Origin: Gammaproteobacteria bacterium
Lineage (GTDB): Bacteria > Pseudomonadota > Gammaproteobacteria > Pseudomonadales > JAUIET01
Direction of reading: 5' to 3'
DNA length: 64,000 nt
Assembly: GCA_030431775.1 (NCBI GenBank)
Contig: JAUIHW010000008.1
Span: 1 to 64,000, forward strand
A model generated the notes under the pieces. That model saw only the letters and a program-made list of their open reading frames with translations, was not told where the DNA came from and made no database searches. Position numbers and translations under genes: made by a program. Position 1 is the first letter of the stretch. Each line of letters opens with the position of its first letter. This document shows positions 57,579 through 59,465 of this stretch, piece by piece.

Positions 57579-57693
<115 letters not shown>

Positions 57694-57788: not shown

Positions 57789-59465
57789 ATGTCGTATCAG
57801 GTGTTGGCTCGAAAGTGGCGGCCGGCAACGTTTCATGAAATGCAGGGCCAGCAGCATGTGCTGCAGGCACTGGTCAATGCGCTGGACAGCGACCGGCTGC
57901 ATCACGCCTACCTGTTCACAGGTACAAGGGGGGTTGGGAAAACCAGCGTTGCTCGCATTCTTGCCAAGTGTCTGAATTGCGAAAAGGGTGTCAGCTCAAC
58001 GCCCTGCGGGCAATGCGGTGCCTGTGTGGCAATTTCCGAGAACCGGTTTGTCGATTTGATCGAGGTGGATGCGGCCTCGAGAACAAAGGTTGAAGACACT
58101 CGGGAATTGCTGGAAAACGTCCAGTACGCGCCCACCGCAGCACGTTTCAAGATCTACCTGATCGATGAAGTCCATATGCTGTCCACCCACAGTTTTAACG
58201 CTCTGCTAAAAACCCTGGAAGAACCACCCCCGCATGTGAAGTTTCTGTTCGCCACGACAGACCCGCAACGTTTGCCAGCCACTATCCTATCGCGTTGCCT
58301 CCAGTTCAGCCTGCAGAAGCTTGCCCCGGAGCTGATTGTTGGGCATCTGCAAAATGTGTTGAACTCCGAACAGGTCGCGGCTGAAGAGGCAGGTTTGTGG
58401 GCTATTGCGCGAGCAGCCGAGGGTAGTATGCGCGATGCGCTGAGCCTGACGGACCAGGCCATCGCCTATGGCGGCGGTGCGATAGACGCAGCCGGGGTGC
58501 AATCAATGCTCGGCGTTACGGATCAGCGCAGTGTTTGCGAAGTACTGGACGCTGTACGACTAAGAGACAGCGCGCGTGCTTTGCAGACCATTGAGCAAAT
58601 CGCTCGGGCCGGGCACGACATGCAGGGCTTTCTGGATGCTGTATTGTCCGCGCTGCACGCGGTTGCCGTATTGCAGTCCGTACCCGACTATCAGGCTGAT
58701 GCCTGGGACCAGGTTGAGGAGTTGCGCAAACTTGCTGAACAGCTTCCAGCGGAGGATATCCAGCTTTACTATCAGTTTGCCCAGCAGGCGCGACGAGATC
58801 TGCCGTTTGCGCCTGAGCCACGCATGGCGATTGAAATGGCTTTGCTGAGAATGCTGACATTTCTCCCTGAAGAACAGGCCGTCGCTGCTCAAGACTCCGA
58901 AGGCGAAAAAAAAAAGCCCCTAGCGCCAGTCCCTGAATCCGCCAAGCCGGCAACCATTGAGGGCGCGCCAGCAAGCGCCTCCGCCGATTTCCCGGCAGCG
59001 AAGGTTGCTACGGTCGCTGCCGAGATACCCAGTGCCCAATCAGCGGCAGCAGTTGCCAATTCATCCACCGATGACTGGCTGGGCTTGTTCGCCCGCTTGC
59101 CGTTGTCCGGAATGGCCAGAAACATCGCCGCGAATTGCGAGTTGCTTGCGGTGGAGGCCAATTGTTGGCGCTTCAGGTTGGATGAGCATAACTGCAAGAT
59201 TTTCCAGCCCGCGCATGTTCAGCAGATCGAGTCAGCACTTGGCGATTTGCTGGGTGAGGCGGTGACCGTGCAGTTGGACTCTGGCGTAGTAGAACGAGAA
59301 ACCCCCTATCTTTACCAGCAGCGTCGCCGCAGGGAAAGGCAGCAGCAGGCGGTAGACAGTATAATGGCGGACCCGAACGTCAATTTGCTGCTGGCAACCT
59401 TTGGCGGAGAGGTGGACCCGCAGTCAATAGCACCGCGTGACAATACAGTCGGCCCCAAAGAATAA
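57789..59465 (+). CDS. dnaX: DNA polymerase III tau/gamma subunits
   Basis: Clamp-loader ATPase of 558 residues. It has Walker [17 protein letters not shown] near residue 46, a zinc site (CLNC ... CGQCGAC), Walker B/DEVH in LIDEVHMLS, and sensor 1 [20 protein letters not shown]. Domain III ends near [10 protein letters not shown] (about 358-366). A run of ten A at 58906-58915, containing A AAA AAG in the E. coli slippery phase, follows at residues 373-376. A -1 shift would stop at TGA 58934-58936 after 382 residues, and the other frame at TAG 58921. So a short gamma product is likely alongside full-length tau. Start ATG follows GTGGAG. Confidence 0.96.

Follow-up and report, generated by a model that had tools for sequence, protein, structure and literature searches.

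A conserved candidate recoding site at ten consecutive A's in the dnaX gene of a gammaproteobacterium, with transcriptional slippage as its likeliest route

The dnaX gene and its run of ten A's

The window, by which we mean the whole stretch of 64,000 nucleotides that was analysed, carries a dnaX gene with the following features:

57789..59465, + strand: dnaX, 558 aa, tau being the full-length reading of the A10 (list of open reading frames and Pfam)
58485..58871, + strand: domain III (PF12169), residues 233-361, the last domain common to tau and gamma (Pfam)
58872..59054, + strand: Pro/Ala-rich linker from domain III to domain V (interval between the Pfam matches, and sequence)
58906..58915, + strand: A10 run, candidate slippage site, one of the genome's two A10 runs (sequence)
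58910..58916, + strand: A_AAA_AAG heptamer in the phase of -1 frameshifting (sequence)
58921..58923, + strand: TAG closing the +1 frame, where an A9 or A12 mRNA would end at 377 or 378 aa
58934..58936, + strand: TGA closing the -1 frame, where an A8 or A11 mRNA or a -1 ribosomal shift would end at 381 or 382 aa
59055..59429, + strand: domain V (PF12170, interacting with alpha), present in tau only (Pfam)

The Pfam matches on the window DnaX were DNA_pol3_delta2 (residues 20-178), the ATPase lid (183-230), gamma3 (233-361) and tau_5 (423-547). Directly upstream of dnaX there is a 4.5S (small SRP) RNA gene at 57588-57684, the sole match in the window at the Rfam gathering thresholds, and the open reading frames downstream are presumably ybaB and recR.

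Residues 373-376 are encoded by GAA AAA AAA AAG, with the G at 58916, and are followed by CCC. The dnaX frame of 57789-59465 puts A_AAA_AAG in the nnA AAA AAG phase, and the first-pass annotation of this DNA rightly saw, at 58906-58916 and within the 558-aa frame, ten A's and a G with the heptamer in the E. coli phase. It had also placed the run exactly after domain III. However, the PF12169 match ends at residue 361, so that the run begins 12 codons past the domain and not at its end. Both alternative frames stop shortly, just as had been annotated, the +1 frame one codon and the -1 frame six codons past the run. The computed products were 381 aa for A8, 377 for A9, 558 for A10, 382 for A11, 378 for A12 and 559 for A13, and a -1 ribosomal shift at the heptamer gives 382 aa, as A11 does. 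The short products, which had been estimated at about 378-382 residues, are thus of 377-382 aa. The full-length protein would have a mass of 61 kDa and the short forms one of about 42 kDa, and the products of 377 and 378 aa would end in EKKSP and EKKKSP, tails that require an altered mRNA or a +1 shift. The zero frame remains open to 59465 with domain V in frame, and a zero-frame stop right behind the site, as found in the reversed dnaX genes described below, was looked for in the window and is absent.

An assembly error in the length of the run was considered and rejected: the dnaX frame is open only for A10 plus or minus multiples of three, and therefore the assembled length is probably right. 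A contingency locus subject to replication slippage at the A10 is also unlikely, because dnaX is essential.

Regarding the rarity of such runs, the window holds two matches of nine A's when 0.79 are expected, and at least two appeared in 21 of 100 shuffles, so that two in 64 kb is not rare by chance. The whole genome of 4.67 Mb has 11 nine-A matches, which correspond to 9 runs of nine or more A's, whereas a rough scaling from the shuffled window gives about 58. There are two A10 runs in the window's genome and two in the genome of its congener, and in both cases one of the pair lies in dnaX. Among the other genomes with a long run in dnaX, three (G022, G038 and G223) have no A10 in the assembly except the one in this gene. 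Two A10 runs outside dnaX, in G044 and G103, lie in no long open reading frame according to a simple scan. G032 has only an A9 in dnaX and 24 A10 matches elsewhere.

Slippery sites in the linkers of related dnaX genes

We searched 293 genomes of the order for dnaX, found a match in 284 and examined 164 genes, which are the matches whose coordinates were listed, together with one or two from each family, a sample that leans towards window-like genes. Weaker unlisted matches, G003, G018, G027, G033, G045, G052 and G141 (at a contig edge) are not among the 164, and six genomes of family f20 (G093, G190, G210, G230, G250 and G289) were left out while six others of that family are in the sample. 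Named loci were inspected outside the 164-gene counts.

In the region after domain III, 88 of the 164 genes have an in-phase run of six to eight A's followed by G (short runs), 13 have A9 or A10 (long runs) and 63 have neither. The 88 short-run sites comprise 85 in linkers of normal layout, two in reversed genes and one (G061) in domain V; the window dnaX and its one compared congener are included in the 13. A candidate linker site is therefore present in 100 of the 164 sampled genes, in three layouts (85 short-run, 2 reversed and 13 long-run), but this proportion is not an order-wide rate, because the sample leans towards the genes most like that of the window. Leaving G061 aside, the sites lie anywhere from codon 362 to codon 534.

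These sites are far more numerous than the coding sequence explains. In the 161 complete genes (without the truncated G090, which was scored as having no site, and the reversed G024 and G282), AAAAAAG was found 92 times in the frameshift phase of the linkers against 7.4 expected from synonymous shuffles, the largest of 200 shuffles giving 15; seven of the 92 sit inside long runs. The other two phases of the same word gave 2 (1.4 expected) and 0 (3.8 expected). Linker runs of nine or more A's numbered 12 in these genes, against 3.6 expected and a shuffle maximum of 11. The comparison across the order thus supports a putative recoding at the dnaX linker site.

Among the named loci, a short-run site was found in Porticoccus, Marinobacterium, Amphritea, Microbulbifer, Spongiibacter and Zhongshania, a long run of A9 in the cultured Oceanospirillum sanctuarii (L061), and a dnaX run of six or more A's was found in none of the 45 loci titled Pseudomonas (one of them, L044, incomplete). 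No linker site was present in the examined genomes of f20 (6/6), f7 (10/10), f28 (11/11) and f34 (5/5), nor in 10 of the 11 of f36. These siteless families may represent repeated losses of gamma made by recoding.

Two main layouts and a reversed one

Most of the short-run sites resemble the E. coli dnaX site: they have a Shine-Dalgarno-like word and an early stop in the -1 frame, and about half show a putative downstream fold. We compared 86 of them (the 88 minus the two reversed genes, G061 being kept in both numbers). The -1 stop came within 6 codons in 83, where random placement in those linkers would give 32, and Shine-Dalgarno pairing of -5 kcal/mol or better was found in 70, against 17.6 expected, with a median of -9.3 kcal/mol in the 88 relatives. 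Treated in the same way, E. coli K-12 dnaX scores -7.4 kcal/mol, and its -1 frame ends after one codon. The mean z of the downstream fold was -1.68, with about half of the sites below -1.5. A +1 stop within 3 codons was as frequent as expected (11/86 vs 10.8). Both stops fell within 6 codons in 15 genes against 6.6 expected, an excess that the enrichment of -1 stops alone would give.

The long-run sites are arranged differently. Here 11 of the 13 genes reach a +1 stop within 3 codons and 12 reach a -1 stop within 6, where random placement in their linkers would give 1.3 and 4.9; both stops fall within 6 codons in 11, when 0.9 are expected and the largest of 20000 draws was 5. The contrast with the short runs in the +1 stop is clear both by genes (Fisher p = 3e-7) and by genus medians, 10 against 41 genera (Mann-Whitney p = 7e-5). 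Shine-Dalgarno pairing of -5 kcal/mol or better is not enriched (1/13 vs 2.1 expected) and the mean fold z is -0.20. The runs occupy all three phases, with 8, 3 and 2 genes respectively; five of the 13 lie outside the A_AAA_AAG phase and a T follows a further one, whereas seven have retained both the G and the phase of ribosomal shifting, perhaps by ancestry or through use. The length is exactly A10 in 12 of the 13 genes, and domain V is found in the zero frame by the domain V model also in 12, this domain being broken in G091. Six further long-run genes of family f44, outside these statistics, had the -1 stop within 6 codons in 6/6 and the +1 stop within 3 codons in 4/6. Considering the 11 genomes of f44 that were examined, the run is A10 in eight and A9, A8 and A6 in one each.

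In a tree built from domains I-III, the long-run label has to change 8 times, and well-supported branches force 4 of these changes; this is a quick tree with several long branches, which counts the changes and not their directions. The sister group of the window is family f42, which has short-run sites (branch support 93, not starred), and by path length a siteless gene of f15 is equally near to the window.

Reversed dnaX genes were seen in three genomes, at loci L130/L323 (G024), L322 (G063) and L223/L312 (G282). In these genes the zero frame ends one codon past A_AAA_AAG, whereas the -1 frame has no stop for 254, 294 and 152 codons respectively. It is this -1 frame that holds domain V of tau, with PF12170 above the cut-off in 3/3. 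A sequencing error is unlikely for G024 and G063, since they are diverged genomes of one genus, and the two congeners of G282, G243 and G263, have A10 in the normal layout. In PMC3711429, a GeneTack cluster of reversed dnaX genes has ten A's in nine of 17 members and slippage was inferred by its authors. The window shares the A10 with them, but there a shift is needed to make tau, which in the window is the zero-frame product.

The route to gamma in the window

We propose that the window dnaX makes tau of 558 aa and gamma-like products of 377-382 aa, the latter mainly by slippage of RNA polymerase, and we would put the probability of this reading at roughly 0.68. Among the mRNAs transcribed through the ten A's, some would have a run of different length, the A/T hybrid being proposed to realign inside RNA polymerase. 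Messengers with 10 or 13 A's would be translated into tau of 558 or 559 aa, while those with other lengths would end at the TAG at 58921 or the TGA at 58934, giving a gamma-like clamp-loader subunit which would keep domains I-III and lack the alpha-binding domain V. That slippage occurs, how efficient it is and that gamma is put to use are what we infer.

The nearest known parallel is Thermus thermophilus dnaX, which, according to PMC1088944 and PMC5009743, has nine A's with a near stop in both other frames and makes gamma by transcriptional slippage, from mRNAs whose change in length is not a multiple of three. The window gene is similar in encoding tau in one open frame with a late run of A's and stops in both frames. 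It differs in having ten A's instead of nine and an in-phase A_AAA_AAG within the run. Moreover, slippage in the window is a prediction made by comparison. The annotated resemblance to the Thermus type is borne out in so far as the window belongs to the class of 9-10 A's, has no Shine-Dalgarno-like word and has stops in both other frames, and these same three properties make us favour a Thermus-type route over a ribosomal one. Among the sampled genes of the order, the sites of 9-10 A's have the layout that slippage needs and the usual ribosomal stimulators are on average absent, which also leads to the slippage reading.

The congener, of which one genome was compared, is 72% identical to the window in domains I-III. 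Its dnaX has A10G with stops after one (-1) and two (+1) codons. The site is at codon 441, however, against codon 373 in the window, and the two A10 runs do not align with each other. That such a site recurs elsewhere in the linker suggests selection on the site and not on the local protein sequence. As for the concern that the run could vary among close relatives, the congener keeps the length of exactly A10, although the place does not hold, being 68 codons further along the linker.

The second A10 of each of these two genomes lies in what is likely one orthologous PAS-domain sensor gene, 40-43% identical:

G000:C89:127298-127307 (L264): A10 of the PAS sensor gene in the window's genome
G001:C10:139240-139249 (L263): A10 of the PAS sensor gene in the congener

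In the window's genome the frame of this gene is open across the A10 and both other frames have early stops. In the congener there is a zero-frame stop about 20 codons past the A10, and the homologous C-terminal part is in the -1 frame. No A10 was found in the PAS sensor of the more distant relatives G050, G012 and G053. The gene is a second slippage candidate, or else it is broken in the congener.

The main alternative is -1 ribosomal frameshifting of the E. coli type at A_AAA_AAG, giving a gamma of 382 aa, with the longer run being incidental. Actually, the window agrees with E. coli dnaX in the heptamer and its phase, in its place between domains III and V and in the early end of the -1 frame, although the stop comes after 6 codons instead of 1, the run has ten A's and the site is at codon 373, against 428 in E. 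coli K-12. The in-phase A6-8 G of 88/164 relatives, including the sister family f42 (support 93, not starred), speaks for the same mechanism, and so does the single tRNA-Lys: among 38 tRNA matches in the window's genome (98.3% complete) the only one for lysine is UUU, and with such a tRNA set, according to PMC5009743, E. coli ribosomes shift well. Nevertheless, an E. coli-type Shine-Dalgarno word about 10 nt upstream is absent from the window, where the score is -3.3 kcal/mol before the run and -4.3 before the heptamer, compared with -7.4 in E. coli. The window is the only one of the 13 long-run genes with a fold z below -1.5 (-1.56 on 52 nt), but this is not confirmed on the longer stretch of 74 nt (z 0.19). 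Furthermore, a +1 stop after one codon is unneeded for -1 shifting and yet it marks the A9-A10 class, in which 5/13 runs are out of phase. We therefore consider this explanation unlikely. The heptamer had also been annotated as suited to -1 shifting, and this stands, given its exact phase in the window and a slippery linker site in one phase with a prompt stop in many relatives; a ribosomal share of the output is compatible with the data, because the heptamer is intact and the one tRNA-Lys is UUU. The comparison across relatives agrees with both halves of the annotated prediction, in which a short gamma would arise either by frameshift or by transcript slippage.

Polymerase slippage and ribosomal shifting could also act both at once and divide the output, since the A10G string suits both routes and the G and the ribosomal phase are both retained in seven of the 13 long runs; but the ribosomal stimulators are absent from the long-run class on average, and we regard such joint action as quite improbable. 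A neutral origin, in which a loose linker encodes KKK and happens to be A-rich and any slippage is noise, we hold to be very improbable: 63/164 relatives lack a site and P. aeruginosa dnaX gave only tau when expressed in E. coli (PMC3290774), but A10 is rare in the genome, paired stops lie close to the long runs, the same run recurs in the congener at a different place of the linker and the site is conserved in many relatives.

Returning to polymerase slippage, two lysine tRNAs have been given as a possible reason for it in Thermus (PMC5009743), whereas the window's genome has one. A pattern search in 62 genomes, which could miss unusual tRNAs, matched a CUU tRNA-Lys only in G009, with a short run, and in G035, without a site, and had no match in 4/62. 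In the 13 long-run genomes it matched no CUU tRNA; UUU was matched in 11 and there was no match in two. A difference in lysine tRNAs as the cause of the A10 is thus not supported by this search, and neither is the idea of a second lysine tRNA, since no CUU was matched in long-run genomes and the window's genome has one lysine tRNA, UUU. A short DnaX beside tau is also found in Caulobacter, but there, according to PMC5009743, gamma is made by proteolysis and not by recoding.

In conclusion, the window dnaX carries a candidate recoding site that is conserved and belongs to a known kind, and transcriptional slippage is its likeliest route. According to PMC3290774 (2012), dnaX frameshift signatures are not maintained in most bacteria outside enterobacteria and Thermus. 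We found no report of the present pattern in this order in the open-access literature, most subscription papers lying outside the search. Relatives within the order seem to reach the same end either by slipping of the ribosome or by slipping of the polymerase. As a tentative generalization, which we consider possible but would not yet bet on, the gamma-making route might have switched repeatedly within the order between ribosomal frameshifting and polymerase slippage, with ten A's as the preferred run length and no second lysine tRNA as the trigger, and in the genus of the window slippage might be a two-gene programme of dnaX and the PAS sensor, each with one of the genome's only two A10 runs. 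The candidate sites in 100 of the 164 sampled genes make it possible to test whether selection maintains gamma, and why a gene would use polymerase slipping over ribosome slipping.
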